This document shows positions 15,945 to 24,513 of a stretch of DNA of 47,967 nt, in pieces. The stretch comes from Candidatus Acidiferrum typicum (GTDB taxonomy: Bacteria > Acidobacteriota > Terriglobia > Acidiferrales > UBA7541): the NCBI GenBank assembly GCA_025463055.1, contig JAOAPV010000012.1:1-47967 (forward strand), in the 5' to 3' direction. Made by a program: the position numbers and the translations under genes. The stretch's first letter is position 1. The number at the start of each line of letters is the position of its first letter. The notes beneath the pieces are model-generated. The model was not told where the DNA came from. It did not search any database and saw nothing but the letters and a program-made list of their open reading frames with translations.

Positions 15945-18900
15945 TCATTTTACACCGCCGCATTTCTGAGGCTCGGGCTGGTTTGGTGTGAATGTACAAG
16001 GTGTAACTCCGGTGCCCCCGAGTGGAATCATGTAAATCGGTTTGTTTTGAGGATCGGGTTTCTTAGGAAAGCGCGCGGACGGGTCTTCGCTAAAGAACAT
16101 GCCAACTTTCCATGCATAGACAGGCTTGTTTAACTGGTTCGCAAGCAATTGGGCAATGGAGTGGCCTGCGCCTCGGATCGGGCGCAGACCCGCGTTGCAC
16201 GCGTTCAGGGTAATCGTCGCATTCGATCCCAGGTTTGCACTCGACAATGTCGCGACATTCAATGCTGAAACATTCGTGTCCGTGCCGCCGCTTTGTCCCG
16301 GCGCAAGGATTGAGAGAAGGCTTCCATCTAATTGTGGCTGTTGGGCCGCGTGGCCGAAATACATTACTCCGCCATCGATCAGGCCATTCGCTGTGAGACC
16401 TGCATTAAAGTCCTGAACAGACGACACACGTTTAGGGATTACAGTGTTTAAACCTGACACAGTTAGAGCGTCAGCTTGGGTTGAGGCGGAAAAATTGAAT
16501 AGATTTCCAACATTGTGGCAATGACGAGCGTCATTGACACAGTCCGCCGTGTTAATACCAGGGTCACCAACTAACAGAACGTATGTCCGTGAGCTCCCGC
16601 CGCCGGATTGAGGCGCTGGCGTCCGCAAGGTTGCTAGGCTGGGTCTCGGAGTAGTCAGCCTGAATTCGTTCATCGAGTAACTTGCGAGGCGGAGCCGAGG
16701 GTTTCTGGGGTCTGTTCTCCGCGCCCAGCGGCTCGTGTTCTTAAGGTTCGGAACCCAGTTAGAGGAAGTACTAGGGGCTGACTGCACTAGACAGGGGCAC
16801 AACGGGATGGAGGTTCCGTTTTGAGATGGATCGCCTTCGAGCGTCGGCCAGAAGTTGGCGTCGCCCAAAGACACTGGTAGTGCGATTCCTAAAGGGCCGG
16901 AACCAGAAGCGGCGGAAGTAACCCAATCCCCAGTCCATGAAGGAGTGGGAAGATCCGGAGGCTGGTCAGTTGCGACTGGGGAGGGGTTGCCTGCTTGGTC
17001 GAATTGCATGATGGTTCCAACCGCGTTTTGGTCGAAATCCTCGCCAATTAGAGTGCCATTGCCGGAGGCTACGATGTCTGTCCCAAGGACGGCTGGTGAG
17101 ACGTAGGTCCAGAGGGACTGACCAGAGTTGACGTCGAAGGCTTGGATGGTCTGGCTGTCAGTGGCGTAGGCGGCACCATTGTCTCCGAGAACCATCGAAA
17201 AGATGTCTTGATACAATGAGGGGAACGAGAAGTCGGTCTGTCCGGAGCTAGTGATATGAGTGACCTTTACAAGGGCTGGTTTAACTGACCAGTCAGTCCA
17301 GGCGGCGAGCCATCCGCCGCTGCCGTCGGGGATCACGCGTTCGGGTTGGGGTCTTCCTTGATTACCATAATTACTAAATGCCGTGTCGTATGAGAACGAA
17401 TGGATCGCTATCATAGAGCTCGATCCATCGGCCTTTATCTGAAATAGGGACAAAGCGTTGGTTCGTGGAGAACTGGTCGGCGTACCGTTACATACCGGGC
17501 CTTGGATAGTAGTTTCAACTTCGACTTCTACGGCGAGCGTCCTGTCGGAGTCGATGGCAACATTGCTGAGAACAGGCGCGTCTGTACCGAAGTCAAACGC
17601 ATTGCCGTCGCAATCGAGACTGTGTCTAGTGTTACTGGGTAGAGGCCAGCGTGCCTGCGGCGTGCCTACAAGGGGATCCAGTGCGACCAGCATTGAAGTG
17701 TCGGAACAGACCCCATGGAATACCGGAGCGTTTGAGCAGGTAAAATTTCCGTTAGGGACTAGGGGTGTCAATTCGACGAAAAACAGCGTGCCGTCTTGCC
17801 GTACGGAAGGAAGGCCGTTAATTTGGTTGGGTGAAGCATAGGTCCACACGGCCGACCCGGTAATTCCATCTAGGTCAAGGACCGTGCTGGTCTTGTTGTT
17901 GTTCACGTCGGGTAATGAGTCGGAAAGCATCATATTTCCGCCAAAACCATCTGGCACTGCCGGAAAGTATCGAGTTGCCGGGACGCTTGCTTGCCAAAAC
18001 TGGCGGCCATCGACTGAGAAGCCGCGCACCACGGCGTTGCCGTTAATATCCTCATCAATTGAGTAGAGCCCTGGAGTGTCGCCCGGAGCTGGTACGGCGT
18101 GCACGACCTGATGATTGCGTAGACCGGACAGGGGCGGTGCGGACCAACGGACAGTGCCTGGAGACAGGGAGGAGCCACCGAGGATGTTGACTTGGGTTTG
18201 CGCACTCCGGGAGCCAACATTCGCCGTTAATGTGAGTTGACCTGAAGCAAGAGCGGTTAGTGTCGACGGGCCGTCCGTTGACATGCTTGCGAGGGAGCTA
18301 TCGCTGATGGCCCAAGAAGCGTCCGGTCGCGGGCGCCCGAGTTCGTCAATTGCGGCGAATTGACGACTTTCTCCGATAGCCATTTTGACGTCAATGGGCG
18401 TGATCTGGAGGGCATTCGGAGCTGGAAGTGTCCCTGTCAAGGTTAGGTGAAAATTGGAACCAGCGACGTTGCCGGCCAAGTCGGTTGCGCGGACCGCGAC
18501 TAAATTGATACCGACGTTGGGGGAGATGTTGCAGGAAAATTGCGAGCCGCCGAATGTTGCTGCTACGCCATTGCATGTCACGGAGGCCAGGCCGGATAGC
18601 GCGTCGCTGACGGTTCCAGTGATCGCAACATTTGGAGATGAAAACGTTGTGCCGTCGAGTGGAGAGGTGACCGACAAAGCAGGAGGAGTTTTGTCGATGT
18701 TGAGCGTAACGCTGACAGTTGAGGAGCCAAAACCAAAAACCGTGCCGCTGATGACCTGATTGGCACCTTCGGAGGTGACGGTTTGGGGCGAGGAGCAGTT
18801 TCCTGCGACCGCGCAAAAGGTCACAGTGGCATCCGTATTGTTCCAGCCGTATGCGTTAGGGGCAGGAGAAACGGTAGGAGCGCCGCTGGCCGGGGAAAGC

Positions 18901-20456
18901 ACAGTAAATGAGAATTGATTGCTCGCAGCGCCGTTTTGGAATACCTGGGCCACGCCGGACTGTGCCTGGCCATTCACGTCCGCGACGATCCTGGTGTCCG
19001 TCCACAGCAAGACTGTCCCATACGCATTACCTAGCAGGACTTGGCCGCTGCCTTGGCTGGCGCCGAAGCTGGTGCCGAAAATGGTTACGGGCGCGCCTGG
19101 AACGGCGGATTGCGGCGAGACATTGGTAATTGCAAGAGGAGCCACAACGGTGAAGAAGAAGCTGTTGCTGACGGTGCCGTTTACGGTGATAACGATGTTG
19201 CCTGAAGTGGCCCCACTTGGGACGGCGATCACAATTTGCGTGTCGCTCCAACTGATGACAGGGAGCACGATGCCGTTGAAAGTGACGGTACTGCTTCCTT
19301 GTGTGGCACCGAAGCCGGAGCCCGTGATGGTGACTGTAGTCCCGGGCGCGCCGGTCGTCGGAGAAATCGAGGAGATCATGGGTGGCGGCGTCGCGACCGT
19401 GAACGAGACACCGTTGCTGGGAGTATTGTTTTCGACTACGACGACGTTGCCGGAGGTGGCGTTGTTGGGGACGATGGCGACGATTTGCGTATCGGTCCAA
19501 CTGGAGACGGCTGCGGCGGCACCGTTGAAGGTGACAAGGCTTGTGGTTTGCGTTGCGCCGAAGCCGGAACCGGTGATGGTCACGGTAGTGCCGGGCGCGC
19601 CGGAAGATGGGGAAATGCCGGAGATGTTGAGCGTGCCGATGACGAAGCGGAGGGAGTTGCTGACGCGGCCGTTGACCATGACGCTGACGCGACCGGTAAT
19701 GGCATCGGTGGGAACGGGAACGGTGATGGAGGTGGCGCTCCAGCTTGTGGGGAAGGATGCCGGCGAGCCGTGAAGTCCGGGGAAGAGGACGCGGCTGCTT
19801 CCCTGGGTATCGCCAAAATTTGTGCCTGTAATGGTGACCGAGGTGCCGACGGGGCCGAGGCCGGGAGAGAGGCTGGTGACGGTGGGAGCGGGCGTGGGCA
19901 CGGTGAAATTGACGCTATTGGTGGCGAGGGTGTTGACGGTGACAACGAGCGGGCCGGTGCTGGCGCCCGCGGGAACGGAAGTGACGATGCTGGTATTGCT
20001 CCAAGACGATGCTGGGCTGGCGATGCCGTTGAAGGCGAGGGTGCTGCTGTTTTGCGTGTCGCCGAAGCCGACGCCGGTGATGGTGACTTGCGTTCCGGGC
20101 GATGCCGAGTATGTGGAGAGCTGATAGATGACGGGGATTACGGTGAAGGGCGCGGAATTGCTGGGAACGCCGCCAACGGTCACAGTGATATTCAGATTTC
20201 CTGCGGCCAGACTATTCGGGACGGGAACGACTAGGCTGGTGTCGCTCCACGAAGAGGGCGGCGCGACAGTCGAACCGAAGGTGACAAAGCTCGCGCCTTG
20301 TGTGGCGCCGAAGTTGGCGCCGGAGATAGTTATGGGGGTGGCGCCGGGGCCGAGTGGTTGCGAGAGGCTGCTGATGGAAGGCGCGGATTGAGCTTGCGCG
20401 TACGCAACGAATGCGAATAAAGACAAGAATACAAAAGCGAGGGGACGGGCTCGCAT
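15945..20456 (-). CDS. Secreted IPT/TIG-repeat and beta-propeller protein with caspase/CHAT-like C-terminal domain
   Basis: This 1503-residue protein starts at the ATG at 20456 (GGAGG 6 bases upstream) with a signal peptide to about residue 22. Six IPT/TIG domains follow in tandem to about residue 530, each opening with a Pro-Gly-(T/A)-x-(V/I)-T-I-x-G-x-x-F-G pattern. Next come Ig-like domains, a Big_2-like domain starting near LQITPIDVKMAIG, and a PQQ-propeller-like region (roughly 790-1200) with repeated SLWTY/AVWTY-type strands. The last 200 residues begin TYVLLVGDPG and place His1369 in MYFGH and Cys1420 in ITLNACNAG. This is the His-Cys spacing and context of clan CD (caspase/CHAT) peptidases. 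It is exported and may be surface-exposed. Proteolysis is inferred only. Confidence 0.85.
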   Translation of the reverse strand: MRARPLAFVFLSLFAFVAYAQAQSAPSISSLSQPLGPGATPITISGANFGATQGASFVTFGSTVAPPSSWSDTSLVVPVPNSLAAGNLNITVTVGGVPSNSAPFTVIPVIYQLSTYSASPGTQVTITGVGFGDTQNSSTLAFNGIASPASSWSNTSIVTSVPAGASTGPLVVTVNTLATNSVNFTVPTPAPTVTSLSPGLGPVGTSVTITGTNFGDTQGSSRVLFPGLHGSPASFPTSWSATSITVPVPTDAITGRVSVMVNGRVSNSLRFVIGTLNISGISPSSGAPGTTVTITGSGFGATQTTSLVTFNGAAAAVSSWTDTQIVAIVPNNATSGNVVVVENNTPSNGVSFTVATPPPMISSISPTTGAPGTTVTITGSGFGATQGSSTVTFNGIVLPVISWSDTQIVIAVPSGATSGNIVITVNGTVSNSFFFTVVAPLAITNVSPQSAVPGAPVTIFGTSFGASQGSGQVLLGNAYGTVLLWTDTRIVADVNGQAQSGVAQVFQNGAASNQFSFTVLSPASGAPTVSPAPNAYGWNNTDATVTFCAVAGNCSSPQTVTSEGANQVISGTVFGFGSSTVSVTLNIDKTPPALSVTSPLDGTTFSSPNVAITGTVSDALSGLASVTCNGVAATFGGSQFSCNISPNVGINLVAVRATDLAGNVAGSNFHLTLTGTLPAPNALQITPIDVKMAIGESRQFAAIDELGRPRPDASWAISDSSLASMSTDGPSTLTALASGQLTLTANVGSRSAQTQVNILGGSSLSPGTVRWSAPPLSGLRNHQVVHAVPAPGDTPGLYSIDEDINGNAVVRGFSVDGRQFWQASVPATRYFPAVPDGFGGNMMLSDSLPDVNNNKTSTVLDLDGITGSAVWTYASPNQINGLPSVRQDGTLFFVELTPLVPNGNFTCSNAPVFHGVCSDTSMLVALDPLVGTPQARWPLPSNTRHSLDCDGNAFDFGTDAPVLSNVAIDSDRTLAVEVEVETTIQGPVCNGTPTSSPRTNALSLFQIKADGSSSMIAIHSFSYDTAFSNYGNQGRPQPERVIPDGSGGWLAAWTDWSVKPALVKVTHITSSGQTDFSFPSLYQDIFSMVLGDNGAAYATDSQTIQAFDVNSGQSLWTYVSPAVLGTDIVASGNGTLIGEDFDQNAVGTIMQFDQAGNPSPVATDQPPDLPTPSWTGDWVTSAASGSGPLGIALPVSLGDANFWPTLEGDPSQNGTSIPLCPCLVQSAPSTSSNWVPNLKNTSRWARRTDPRNPRLRLASYSMNEFRLTTPRPSLATLRTPAPQSGGGSSRTYVLLVGDPGINTADCVNDARHCHNVGNLFNFSASTQADALTVSGLNTVIPKRVSSVQDFNAGLTANGLIDGGVMYFGHAAQQPQLDGSLLSILAPGQSGGTDTNVSALNVATLSSANLGSNATITLNACNAGLRPIRGAGHSIAQLLANQLNKPVYAWKVGMFFSEDPSARFPKKPDPQNKPIYMIPLGGTGVTPCTFTPNQPEPQKCGGVK

Positions 20457-20628
20457 CTGATTCCTCCGAGTATCTTTTTGAAAGCGACCCGCCGGTGGAT
20501 TGGCGTGTTGGCGAGAGTTTTAGGGCTTAGGTCACATTTTGTCAAGACAATATTGCGTTATTACATGGCATTGGAAATACCAAAGATGCTATAGGTGAAG
20601 GCTCGGGGGGGAAGCGGCTCGAGTGTTA

Positions 20629-20878
20629 GGAAAAAAATTAAGGGCGCACCGACCTGTGAAGGTTGATGCGCCCTTTTAAACTGAAACCGCAAAACTTTTT
20701 TGCTTTTTGGTTCTAGTCTGGCGGCGCGACTGCCGTTAGGCGGAAGCGCCTTCTAGGCTGAGCCGTAAAGTTTCTAAGCTTTTCGGTTCAATCTGGCGGC
20801 ACGATAATCCTGATGGTTTGGGGCGTCAATGGAAATCGGCGGGAACGTCTGTGCAAAGGTGTGGATGGGTGTGGGAAA
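20629..20878 (-). repeat. 250-bp structured intergenic element, copy 1
   Basis: This segment is closely repeated at 22351-22600. It contains a hairpin at about 20641-20673 (GGGCGCA/TGCGCCC with an inner CGACCT/AGGTTG stem and a GTGA loop). A CCGTAAAG/CTTTTCGG hairpin lies near 20763-20786 and a GGCG-GAAG-CGCC hairpin near 20739-20750. Within the element, CTGAAACCGC at 20681 and CTGAGCCGT at 20758 begin two related units of about 77 bases. Read on the minus strand, the first hairpin is followed by TTAATTTTTTT, suggesting the transcript is minus-strand and ends there. It lies 100 bases downstream of the stop of the gene at 20978-21544. Confidence 0.8.
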
Positions 20879-20977
20879 AACGGGCGGGCGCTAAAGCTAT
20901 GCGACGGCAAGAACAGAGAGGACGACAAGATGCGGCCCTGCGGGCCTGGGTCGCGCTGAAGCGCGGCCCCTACAACG

Positions 20978-21544
20978 TCAATTCAGGACGGCGTCTACCA
21001 TGTGAGTTACACGGCGCCAGAGTTGGGCGGGGTGTCCGGTGCGCGCGTCGCGGCCAAAGCGAAAGCTGAGGCTGAGCCCGGCGAGATGAACCGAACGCGG
21101 CCCGCCGGGGAAAGTTTGTCCGGAGAGAAGAGAGTTCCGCATACCACCACCGCCGACAAGGCCAAGCTGTCCGTTTTGAATGCGAAGCGTGCTCTGAAAG
21201 GCGTCCAGTTGCAGGCGTCCGCCCCAGAATTGGACGAGCGGCAGGCTCGACTGCGAGAGAATTACGGTCCTAACCTCGTTCAGTGGCGAAAGATGCTCCA
21301 GGCGATAGTCGCGCGGGTAAGCACCCGCGAACTGGCGACTGAAATGGGGATTAAATTTTTCGGGGTTCTGGAACAGCAGGAAGGAAAAGGCCGGCAAAGC
21401 GGCTGATACCGTTGGGAGTACCGAGAGGGCTGGCACAATATGTTGTTGGGCTAGAACGATCTGTGGCGTGGGTGTCTGTGCTACGGCCGGGCGGTGGCTA
21501 CCCAGAAATATTCCGAGCAGCAAAATAAATGGCTTGTACGTCAT
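20978..21544 (-). CDS. Secreted protein of unknown function
   Basis: Starting at the ATG at 21544 the protein has 188 residues and a clear signal peptide (MTYKPFILLLGIFLGSHRPAVAQ). A longer frame to 21604 adds a basic extension that masks it. The mature protein is rich in aromatic and Leu residues in its middle (PAFSFLLFQNPEKFNPHF). It ends with beta-like segments, VHLAGLSLSFRFGRDA, reminiscent of a terminal membrane-strand pattern. No recognised domain. A GC-rich hairpin pair lies just downstream near 20930-20970, then the 250-bp element. The ribosome binding site is weak (AAAGAG). Confidence 0.7.
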   Translation of the reverse strand: MTYKPFILLLGIFLGSHRPAVAQTPTPQIVLAQQHIVPALSVLPTVSAALPAFSFLLFQNPEKFNPHFSRQFAGAYPRDYRLEHLSPLNEVRTVILSQSSLPLVQFWGGRLQLDAFQSTLRIQNGQLGLVGGGGMRNSLLSGQTFPGGPRSVHLAGLSLSFRFGRDARTGHPAQLWRRVTHMVDAVLN

Positions 21545-21780
21545 TGGTTGTCTCTTTACTGATTCCTGCTTTTCACGAGTGAAGCGAAGGAATGACACCG
21601 CCACGTCTGGGTCCCCTTCGTTATCACCTGAGAATGAGCGGCCTAGCTTGGAATGGAGAGGAACTAGATTGCGGATGACGAAATGAGATTACTGCGTGGG
21701 GATTCGCAGGTCTGTCCTTTTGCGGACACTTTCGGAGCGTGAATAACTCCAGCGGAATCGCGTGGCGCGGAAGCGGCGGG

Positions 21781-22233
21781 TTAGGGCTTGGCGTCCAGGA
21801 CGGCTTTGCCGGTGTCCAGGTCTACCGGCACGGAAATGTGGTCGTGGATGGCTAGCCAGCGGCCGTTCGTTTTGCGGTAGCACTCTGTGAAGCGGACCCA
21901 GGTGTCGAACTTCTGGCCATTTTTCAACGTGCCGGTCATGCGCTCGAGCCCGCGGCTGAACGCGACGGTGTCTCCGGCGACGATTTTCAAGTCGCGATAT
22001 TCGATTTCTACAGGTCCTTGAAACTGGTCGAGAAATTCCTGGTAATCCTTTTTGTAGGCTTCATAGCCAGAGTATTGCAGGGGCGGCACGATGTCGTAGG
22101 AGACGAGAGCGTCTCCGGGTTCGTAGATGGACATAATTCCGTTGAGATCCCTGGCGTGAAAGGCCTTGGCCCATCGATCCAAGACTCTGCGAATCTCCGT
22201 TTCGTTGTTAGCGGCGGTCTGCGCTTTAGCCAT
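21781..22233 (-). CDS. NTF2-like (SnoaL/DUF4440 type) protein
   Basis: From the ATG at 22233 (MAKAQTAANN) the protein is 150 residues, the usual size of one NTF2-like cone-shaped domain. The pattern is characteristic: ETEIRRVLDRWAKAFHARDLNGIMSIYEPGDALVSYD, then YKKDYQEFLDQFQGPVEIEY, and strands ending WLAIHDHISVPVD. Proteins of this family act as small-molecule isomerases, hydrolases or ligand binders, and the pocket cannot be read here. An upstream open extension to 22362 overlaps the edge of the 250-bp element and was rejected. No signal peptide, so cytoplasmic. Confidence 0.85.
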   Translation of the reverse strand: MAKAQTAANNETEIRRVLDRWAKAFHARDLNGIMSIYEPGDALVSYDIVPPLQYSGYEAYKKDYQEFLDQFQGPVEIEYRDLKIVAGDTVAFSRGLERMTGTLKNGQKFDTWVRFTECYRKTNGRWLAIHDHISVPVDLDTGKAVLDAKP

Positions 22234-22350
22234 AGCGGGTCGATTGCGCAGAATGATCAGCGCCGGGTAGAAATTGCGGTGGATTATCTGGCGGAAGTTT
22301 GGCGGCGTCAAGGGGATGCGACTGAATCGGCTGTGCGGAGCGGAGCTGGC

Positions 22351-22600
22351 GGAAAATATCAAGGGCGCAACTACCGGTTAAGGTTGTTGCGCCCCTTTTA
22401 AACTGAAACCGCAAAACTTTTTTGCTTCTTGGTTCTAGTCTGGCGGCGCAACTGCCGTTAAGCGGAAGCGCCCTCTAGGCTGAGCCGTAAAGTTTCTAAG
22501 CTTTTCGGTTCAATCTGGAGGGACGATAATCCTGATGGTTTGAGGCGTCAATGGAATTCGGCGCGGGAAGCTGTGCAAAGGTGTGGATGGGTGTGGGAAA
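22351..22600 (-). repeat. 250-bp structured intergenic element, copy 2
   Basis: Close copy of 20629-20878 in the same orientation, with substitutions that keep the main hairpin (GGGCGCAA/TTGCGCCC near 22362-22393) while the loop changes to GGTTAA. In copy 1 the corresponding pair is a C-A mismatch, and here it is A-T. The two internal units and the terminal segment ending TGTGGGAAA are conserved. It lies 70 bases downstream of the stop of the copper-monooxygenase-like gene and upstream of the NTF2-like gene, mirroring copy 1. Confidence 0.8.
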
Positions 22601-22670
22601 CGGTGCCGAGTGTACTGTGCTGTCCGACTGCCACGCGGAACGTGTGTCGCACCTATGGCGCTGAAATGAT

Positions 22671-23786
22671 TTATTCGTGGGTGGCGGCGGTTACTTGATG
22701 GGTGGCGGATTTGGATTTGCGACGTAGGGCGGACATGGCGTTATCGTCGGAAGGCAGGAAGTAGCCTACTACTATGCCCATGGCGCCGGCGGGTAGGGGC
22801 TTGCCGGTTGTGTTGTCGTAGGTGGCGGTGATGCGGAGCTCGTCGCCGGCGGCGAATTTGTAGCCACCGCGATCGAAGAAGGTGACTACGGGCATGCTGA
22901 GGAGCTGACCCTTTTCATCGACATTGGCGTTGAGGGTGGCGACGGTTTCTTTGCGCGTGGTGTCTTCGAGCGTGAGTTGCTTGGCGTAATCGTGCATGTG
23001 GCCGCCGACGCCGAGGAGGATGCCGCTGTATCGCACGGTGACGGTGCCGGTGCTTTCGTTTTTGCCGGCGTGGAGATCGTAGCCGGAGTTACCGCAGGAC
23101 TGGACGTCCATCCAGGTGGGGTAAACGCTTTTCGTGGGGGTGGCCGGGTCGGCGTAGGGAATTTTTACTTCGAGGTAGACGTTGTTGTACGAGGTGGTAG
23201 TGGGATTATGGACCATGGTTTCGATGCGGATTTTGTCTCCCTTTTGCACGCGGTAGGCGTAGCCGGGGACTTCCATCCAGTCGGTAAGCTCGCTGCCGGC
23301 GCCAAAAATGTGCTCTTCCTTGTTGGGGCAGAGAAAATCGGGGCGATTGGTGTTCCAGAAGGCGGTGTGATGGAGGACGGTTCCGGGGACGGCGTTGCCG
23401 TTGGCGTCGACGAGGCGCGGAGTGTAGGCGCGGAGAAAGGCGTCGAGCGGAATGGTCCAGAAGACGTCAGGAGGCTGCGGCATCTTCCTGTGATCGGTGT
23501 TGGCGGGTAGGGTGAGCGGGCCTTCGCGAAGGGTGATGGTGTGAGTGGCGGCGTCGACTTGCTGGTCGAGCTTGATGCCTTTGGCGACGGCGTGGTGCAT
23601 GCCTTGTTGCATGAAGCCGCCGTGATTGTGCTGCATGTGGGCCATGTCGTGAGCGGGCGCGGCCGGCTGCTCTTGTTGCTGTTGCTGCGCGGCGCCGGCG
23701 GTGATGAACGGGAATGCCAGGCCGATGCTGAGGAGCGCGATTGTCGACACGCTTGGGAGATGCTTTTGCAGTACGAGAGGATTCAT
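22671..23786 (-). CDS. Secreted copper type II monooxygenase-like protein with His/Met-rich N-terminus
   Basis: The ATG at 23786 has GAGGTG upstream. A signal peptide ends near residue 34, followed by a poly-Gln tract and a His/Met-rich stretch (HDMAHMQHNHGG, then MQQGMHHAV) likely to bind copper. The 371-residue protein then shows two beta-rich halves. The first has VLHHTAFWNTNRPDFLC and YRVQKGDKIRIETMVHNPT; the second has GVGGHMHDYAKQLTLED. This layout recalls the PHM/DBM ascorbate-dependent copper monooxygenase fold, where His pairs in the two halves bind copper. Not all canonical ligands can be placed, so enzymatic activity is uncertain. It should lie in the periplasm or outside the cell. 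Confidence 0.7.
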   Translation of the reverse strand: MNPLVLQKHLPSVSTIALLSIGLAFPFITAGAAQQQQQEQPAAPAHDMAHMQHNHGGFMQQGMHHAVAKGIKLDQQVDAATHTITLREGPLTLPANTDHRKMPQPPDVFWTIPLDAFLRAYTPRLVDANGNAVPGTVLHHTAFWNTNRPDFLCPNKEEHIFGAGSELTDWMEVPGYAYRVQKGDKIRIETMVHNPTTTSYNNVYLEVKIPYADPATPTKSVYPTWMDVQSCGNSGYDLHAGKNESTGTVTVRYSGILLGVGGHMHDYAKQLTLEDTTRKETVATLNANVDEKGQLLSMPVVTFFDRGGYKFAAGDELRITATYDNTTGKPLPAGAMGIVVGYFLPSDDNAMSALRRKSKSATHQVTAATHE

Positions 23787-24030
23787 ATTGCACCTCGCTG
23801 ATGCAGCGATGGCAGGGCTAGTGACATGTCTATGATATGCCTCTGACAGCGCGAGTGAGAGAATCCCGCCGCTTGTTGTGCCAAAGAGTGAGCGGAGGAT
23901 TCGCGGGGACCTGCTGGTTGTTTGATGCGGATGGCGAGCGCGGCGTTTGCGTTTCGCGAGTGTCGCGGCTATGCAGGCGGGCGTGCACCAGCGATTGGCC
24001 TCGACCTGTATATCCGTATATAGGAGTGCA

Positions 24031-24513
24031 GTGACACAGAAGACCAACGCGGCTCGGCTATTGGACCAGATGGGAATCGGCTACGAACTGCGTGAGTATG
24101 AAGTGGACCCGGAGGATCTTGCGGCAGAAGCGGTTGCTGCCAAGATCGGGCTGCCAGCGGGGCAACTGTTCAAAACACTGGTCGCGCAGGGTGATCGGCA
24201 CAGCATTTGTATGGCGGTCATTCCGGGTGATACAGAATTGGACCTGAAGACGCTGGCTGCCGCCTCTGGTGATCGCAAAATTCATCTCGTTCCTGTGAAG
24301 GATTTGCAGAAACTCACTGGGTACATTCGTGGCGGAGTAACGGCGCTAGCAGCAAAGAGGGCGTACCCGGTCTATGCCGACTTTAGTATCGAGCGGTTCG
24401 ATGTGATTTCGATTTCCGCGGGCGTACGGGGATTGCAGATACTCCTTGCACCTGCGGACTATCTCAGGGCGGCGAAGGCGACGCTAGGATCAATTGCCAT
24501 GAGCAAGGGATAA
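24031..24513 (+). CDS. ybaK: Cys-tRNA(Pro)/tRNA deacylase, YbaK/EbsC family
   Basis: A GTG start at 24031 is set by AGGAG five bases upstream and gives the family-like opening MTQKTNAARLLDQMGIGYE. The 160-residue protein is a single YbaK domain, with AAKIGLPAGQLFKTLV, the strand CMAVIPGDTELDLKTLA, and GYIRGGVTALAAKRAYPVYAD, in which the conserved Gly-Gly loop binds the tRNA 3' end. The enzyme removes misacylated amino acids, usually Cys from tRNA-Pro, in the cytoplasm. It diverges from the copper-monooxygenase-like gene across a 244-base shared upstream region. Confidence 0.95.
   Translation: MTQKTNAARLLDQMGIGYELREYEVDPEDLAAEAVAAKIGLPAGQLFKTLVAQGDRHSICMAVIPGDTELDLKTLAAASGDRKIHLVPVKDLQKLTGYIRGGVTALAAKRAYPVYADFSIERFDVISISAGVRGLQILLAPADYLRAAKATLGSIAMSKG

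Follow-up and report, generated by a model that had tools for sequence, protein, structure and literature searches.

The two close copies of a roughly 250-bp element in the window, a 47,967-nt stretch of DNA from Candidatus Acidiferrum typicum (the host), are almost certainly two independent small RNA (sRNA) genes read from the minus strand. This conclusion is drawn from comparative sequence evidence. Each gene has a putative promoter preceded by a triple 10-bp box, and the predicted RNA consists of two similar modules. Taken as a whole, the findings are best explained by a multivalent sRNA that is controlled through the box and titrates an RNA-binding protein, a reading to which a probability of about 50% is given. 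The family is apparently undescribed, as judged from Rfam 15 and a literature search. The features of both copies are as follows.

20849..20878, minus strand: copy 1, triple 10-bp box TTTCCCACAC CCATCCACAC CTTTGCACAG (box survey, alignment)
20801..20829, minus strand: copy 1, putative promoter TTGACG-N17-TATCGT (conserved in relatives; promoter scanner)
20631..20794, minus strand: copy 1, predicted small RNA of about 164 nt, two modules (start inferred from the -10 box)
20717..20792, minus strand: copy 1, module 1 (hairpin A halves and hairpin B)
20723..20750, minus strand: copy 1, hairpin B of module 1 with a UAAC apical loop (folding)
20637..20716, minus strand: copy 1, module 2
20640..20675, minus strand: copy 1, terminal hairpin B with a UCAC loop, then AATTTTTTT; terminator-like (folding)
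22571..22600, minus strand: copy 2, triple 10-bp box
22523..22551, minus strand: copy 2, putative promoter TTGACG-N17-TATCGT (promoter scanner, alignment)
22353..22516, minus strand: copy 2, predicted small RNA of about 164 nt, two modules
22439..22514, minus strand: copy 2, module 1
22445..22472, minus strand: copy 2, hairpin B of module 1 with a UAAC apical loop (folding)
22359..22438, minus strand: copy 2, module 2
22361..22397, minus strand: copy 2, terminal hairpin B with a weaker tail, GATATTTT (folding)

The first-pass annotation had described positions 20629-20878 and 22351-22600 as close copies in the same orientation. A gapped alignment bears this out, with 227 of 251 columns identical. 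The copies share 208 nt at 93% according to a repeat finder and are 92% identical across about 248 nt in a whole-genome search. The 30-bp box is the same at all 30 positions. Since the aligned stretch spans everything from the box array to the tail, the duplicated unit is one gene. Finer details of the annotation were also reproduced: CTGAAACCGCAAAACTTTTT is unchanged between the copies, the loop reads GTGA in one and GGTTAA in the other (plus strand), and where copy 1 has a C-A mismatch, copy 2 has an A-T pair.

On the minus strand, each gene is ordered as a 30-bp array, a 19-bp spacer, the promoter, the RNA, a strong last hairpin and a tail. The RNA is predicted to start near AGAUUGAACC, at 20794 in copy 1 and 22516 in copy 2. 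Both putative promoters of the window, which are of the sigma70 type, were flagged by a promoter scanner. A simple terminator scanner reported 0 sites in 20500-22700 and flagged neither terminal hairpin. In a catalogue of 67 family genes from 39 genomes, a hairpin with a T-rich tail was detected in 60 of the 67 genes by motif and in 56 of the 67 by folding, both window copies included. The minus-strand RNAs of copies 1 and 2 fold with z scores of -4.51 and -5.25, and 0 of 200 shuffles folded equally well. For copy 1, folding of the plus strand gave a z score of -6.19, and folding energy alone therefore leaves the strand undecided; the assignment to the minus strand is made from the promoter, the box, the T-tail and the relatives. 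The minimum-energy folds of the two window RNAs differ, being global in copy 1 and local in copy 2. The suggestion of a transcribed structured RNA is supported by the conserved promoter, the terminator-like end, hairpins with some compensatory change and relatives in dozens of genomes. Beyond what the first-pass annotation had described, the analysis added the promoter, the box, the two-module build and the variable number of modules in the family.

The host genome has four clear copies, namely the two in the window and those at C41:66793-67036 and C138:14898-15012. A fifth (C126:25835-25915) is degenerate and has no recognisable box. Relatives were sought with a sequence model of the box, promoter and first hairpin, which matches 40 of the 89 genomes of the host's taxonomic family. 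Among the 50 family genomes with completeness of 90% or more and contamination of 5% or less, 25 match; because the other 25 are without a match, the sRNA is not essential to the taxonomic family. Under stricter filters, with which weak matches are lost, 40 of 399 genomes matched in a class sample, every one from the host's family, and the sole match in a phylum sample of 396 genomes was the host's own genome. The conserved core was also found in 15 named contigs, all metagenome-assembled and assigned to Acidobacteria or groups within them, with 8 of the 15 labelled gp2. One genome of another family (G086, locus L038) gave a DNA match of 28 nt (E 4.5e-4), which was put down to chance, as no box or promoter was found there by script. 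The box was likewise absent by script from L037 (G022:C165). At the Rfam 15 gathering score, neither the window nor 12 further loci (two from the host) gave a match; the best sub-threshold matches in the region were S_pombe_snR96 (E 0.03, 23.5 of 100 bits) and Ms_IGR-7 (E 3). The literature search turned up no named acidobacterial sRNA family of this kind. The family thus adds a sizeable group of sRNAs from soil Acidobacteria that has no Rfam 15 match.

The RNA is a string of modules of about 76 nt, each containing both halves of hairpin A (AUUGAACCGGGAAG...CUUUACGGCUCAAU) together with a hairpin B rich in G+C. Sequence comparison indicates that hairpin B of the last module probably doubles as the terminator. 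Genes have from one module (about 84-85 nt) to seven (about 535 nt), with two in the window genes, and RNA length stays near 75-76 nt per module; a four-module member (G004) was assigned by length only. The loop of hairpin B is of the UNAC or GNRA type in 56 of 93 modules and of other types in 37. UNAC and GNRA loops are described as similar in fold in passages of two reports (PMC5311481, PMC12550061). In a divergent class of long RNAs (L132, L134, L135 and L143), GGGUAAAACC is repeated 5-7 times per RNA when up to 2 changes are allowed.

Pairing was analysed within and between modules. Hairpin B and a helix between module 2 and the last module are supported, and hairpin A is moderately supported. 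In 64 first modules, 88.6% of 747 hairpin A cells are paired, a level reached in 0 of 500 shuffles, and sliding the partner by one to three columns lowers pairing to 48% or less. Of 500 shuffles, 4 attained the covariation score of hairpin A and 70 attained its count of four double-change pairs, so that this count is not unusual. In multi-module RNAs, partition functions often pair the 5' half of one module with the 3' half of another. The clearest of these predicted helices, of about 20 bp, joins the 3' half of hairpin A in module 2 to the 5' half of hairpin A in the last module, and among 12 three- and five-module genes this pairing ranks first in 11. One register of the helix has 188 of 220 cells paired, compared to 33-53% in other registers, and five columns have double changes; the register was chosen from the 11 genes on which it was also scored. 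When the partners were swapped between genomes, cognate duplexes averaged -21.1 kcal/mol versus -18.3 kcal/mol for swapped ones (n=12, printed p 0.0000 with 20000 permutations); by class, p was 0.011 for three-module and 0.052 for five-module genes.

Further pairing was predicted in the five-module RNAs. There, the 3' half of module 4 prefers the 5' half of module 3 in 4 of 6 genes, so that modules 3 and 4 would form a nested insert. Swap tests on this nesting were not significant (p 0.27 and 0.12), and those on the remaining inter-module helices gave p values of 0.21 to 1.0. A simple chain, with each module forming its own local A hairpin, was rejected, as inter-module pairing is predicted in most multi-module RNAs. 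For module 1, little energy separates the local from the closing pairing. According to the first-pass annotation, a lack of covarying pairs among many copies would have pointed to a simple mobile repeat. Covariation does exist, though it is weak in the strictest all-pairs test. That test, which has a tree-based null and covered 90 modules (89 of them distinct), found no pair below E 0.05. When just the 21 proposed pairs are counted (rescaled), pairs 51-80 (about 0.010) and 55-75 (about 0.044) pass, both of them in hairpin B.

The total number of modules per genome lies in a narrow range among carriers. Each of the 24 scored genomes that are at least 90% complete has 3-7 modules in total, reached either as several short genes or as one long gene; lengths were taken from the catalogue and from folding, and decayed and weak copies were left out. 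Across the 24 genomes, copy number falls as the number of modules per gene rises (Spearman -0.82, p 9e-7), with a p-value that overstates the trade-off because the single-module genes group in one clade (of a midpoint-rooted tree without support values) and thus reflect few independent events. The host is intermediate: three of its genes have two modules and one has a single module. A total of only one module was counted in each of three less complete genomes (G016, G022 and G128).

The repetition of similar hairpins, the recurrence of loop types, the variable valency and the narrow range of total modules among carriers are the reasons for proposing a multivalent titrating RNA. The RNA would act in trans, each module would offer one protein-binding hairpin, and the modules of three- and five-module RNAs may interlock through the module-2/last-module helix. 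The logic would be that of CsrB with a different protein. CsrB and RsmZ sponges are likewise stand-alone RNAs with several similar hairpins as possible protein sites and a unit number that varies by species. However, membership in CsrB and a role as a CsrA sponge were rejected. GGA is absent from both window RNAs and from the C41 copy and occurs once in the C138 copy, and no CsrA match was obtained at E 0.001 in the host genome, which is 98.9% complete (3 of 14 control genomes were positive). The RNAs differ further from these sponges in that their modules of about 76 nt pair mutually and are preceded by a triple TNCACA box. Multi-copy sRNA families include LhrC, RsmX/Y/Z and alpha-r15. The acidobacterial family shares with them the several similar sRNA genes per genome, some of them close together, but here the repeat also grows inside one transcript, and it has no Rfam match at the gathering score. 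ToxI RNAs of type III toxin-antitoxin systems are tandem-repeat RNAs too; unlike them, the sRNA family has no conserved neighbour gene, and its repeats, which form hairpins, have about twice the length.

Base pairing with mRNAs is the main rival to titration, which is itself preferred only tentatively. According to this rival, the RNA is a trans-encoded antisense sRNA whose conserved 5' end and hairpin A loop pair with mRNAs, and extra modules serve as extra sites. First modules are indeed more conserved than modules generally (mean column identity 77%, n=25, versus 62%, n=90), and the T-tailed last hairpin is typical of Hfq-type sRNAs. Yet the predicted folds place most of the conserved 5' segment in helices, and the sole Hfq match in the genome lies below the cut-off (22.5 versus 27 bits). 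An antisense function is possible but rather unlikely on this evidence. A titrating, multivalent sRNA of a known general kind (stand-alone and possibly a sponge) is retained as the preferred reading. What is unusual is that a triple box almost exclusive to the family occurs together with modular growth and an inter-module helix. With one to seven modules under a constant promoter layout, the family also offers a natural series in which valency effects in regulatory RNA could be studied.

The box, promoter and first hairpin align nearly without gaps in 25 genes (132-nt pieces, 135 columns), and a TTGAC-type -35 and a -10 are conserved in this set. The box follows the pattern TTTNCACA-N4-TNCACA-N2-TTTNCACA, with the consensus TTTT[G/C]CACA / CRT[G/C]CACA / NTTT[C/G]CACA, and looks like three phased DnaA boxes. 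Of the 67 catalogued genes, 60 have a full three-unit box with 10-bp spacing. In 58 of them, the distance from the box start to the first A of the RNA is 84 or 85 bp, and the array lies about 56-85 bp ahead of the predicted start. In the other seven genes, the first unit is shifted by one base (three genes: L112, L131, L145) or fewer units are recognisable, the rest being missing or degenerate (four genes: L111, L104 twice, one in L103). The box is also nearly exclusive to the family. With at most one mismatch, TTTNCACANNNNTNCACANNTTTNCACA occurs 53 times in 36 genomes of the genus, compared to once for the reversed control. A coordinate comparison with the family search and the catalogue assigned 52 of the 53 to the sRNA family, and the RNA body of the family lies downstream of 51. 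Because the box is almost dedicated to the family, its genes are easy to find and its regulator can be tested.

Which protein might bind the box? The DnaA box consensus is TTWTNCACA. The outer units of the triple box agree with it, free N included, and the middle unit matches at TNCACA only. The host dnaA promoter itself has CTTTCCACA and TTTTTCACA, 11 bp apart. DnaA-regulated promoters thus share with the sRNA promoter the upstream boxes of the TTTNCACA form, but the sRNA gene differs in having three of them 10 bp apart and almost to itself. MraZ was considered as a second candidate, suggested by the 10-bp period and disfavoured by the core sequence. The MraZ boxes of the dcw cluster are also three direct repeats with a 10-bp period, and the host mraZ promoter (L061, G000:C91) reads CCCAC-N5-CCCAC-N5-TCCAC. 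In contrast, the cores of the sRNA box are mostly TGCAC or TCCAC rather than CCCAC; the first unit of the window copies is CCCAC. The leading reading is DnaA control, because the consensus fits, the dnaA promoter has similar boxes and mraZ differs in the core. DnaA, or a regulator with the same site preference, would bind the box, and transcription would depend on that binding. As a proposal about the sRNA promoter, DnaA-type control is put forward with slightly less than even confidence. If DnaA does bind the box, the sRNA would be tied directly to replication initiation.

A bolder form of the titration reading would combine these elements. In it, a DnaA-switched, 'module-counting' sponge would be kept at about 3-7 modules per genome by gene copying or RNA lengthening, with two-module inserts nested in the inter-module helix. 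This is doubtful as a whole. If true, it would mean that growth of the RNA follows a recursive rule under an unchanging promoter, and that replication initiation is linked to a global RNA-binding regulator.

The resemblance of the boxes to TTWTNCACA could also point to an element that acts as DNA, the triple box being a DnaA titration or regulatory site and the RNA incidental. Two boxes would suit this explanation. The one at G017:C14 is counted in the family and stands beside a decayed RNA, and the one at L182 (G006:C99:55968-55995), a triple box of the form TTTCCACACC-TTTCCACACC-TTTCCACA, has no such RNA after it. The other 51 of the 53 matches are followed by the RNA body of the family in a nearly fixed register, which makes a DNA-level role very improbable as the whole explanation. 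Two loci, L123 (G017:C14) and L125 (G011:C509), have a conserved box and promoter region with a decayed RNA body, each in a genome with an additional five-module gene.

A divergent 6S RNA that binds RNA polymerase was weighed as well. The RNA is stand-alone, highly structured and about 164 nt long in the window genome, as such a molecule might be; however, the 85-nt members seem too short for the 6S layout, and the 6S model (RF00013) had no match in the element region even at E 5. This identity is considered very unlikely. A separate host locus is a 6S candidate: L138 (G000:C124:26244-26457), about 3 kb from dnaA, scores 32.4 bits against a gathering score of 46.4.

The first-pass annotation had further proposed a 3'-UTR element, and its observation on position is correct: the elements lie 99 and 70 bp past the stops of the minus-strand ORFs 20978-21604 and 22671-24047, neither of which has a Pfam match at E 0.01. 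A 3'-UTR, terminator or leader element of neighbouring protein genes is nevertheless highly improbable. The element has its own promoter and a box in fixed register, and the neighbouring genes vary in identity and orientation between genomes. A conserved neighbour gene was sought and rejected, as shared clusters are common to some relatives only.

The position of the genes relative to ORFs also bears on mobility. Of 65 genes, 7 lie inside a mechanical ORF of at least 150 aa, compared to 70% of random stretches from the same loci, and 28 overlap such an ORF by at least 60 nt, compared to 90%. For ORFs of at least 250 aa, 3 of 65 lie inside and 9 of 65 overlap, versus 58% and 72% of random stretches. 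The genes are largely intergenic on account of this depletion, with a few cases that ORFs alone leave undecidable. The least probable explanation, a mobile or REP-like repeat inserted at random and also within genes, could draw on the several copies in some genomes and on seven gene pairs spaced 1.1-1.85 kb apart in six genomes besides the window, but the depletion in ORFs, the maximum of five copies per genome, the 0 viral contigs matching the one exact pattern tried and the extent of the window's duplicated unit from box to T-tail all argue against it.

Two observations concern the surroundings of the sRNA genes. A third promoter-like site, TTGACG-N17-GATAAT, lies at 22283-22311 on the minus strand, near the start of a SnoaL-like ORF (21781-22362). 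Downstream of copy 1, 15945-20456 on the minus strand encodes a 1503-aa protein with six TIG domains and a glucodextranase-B domain.
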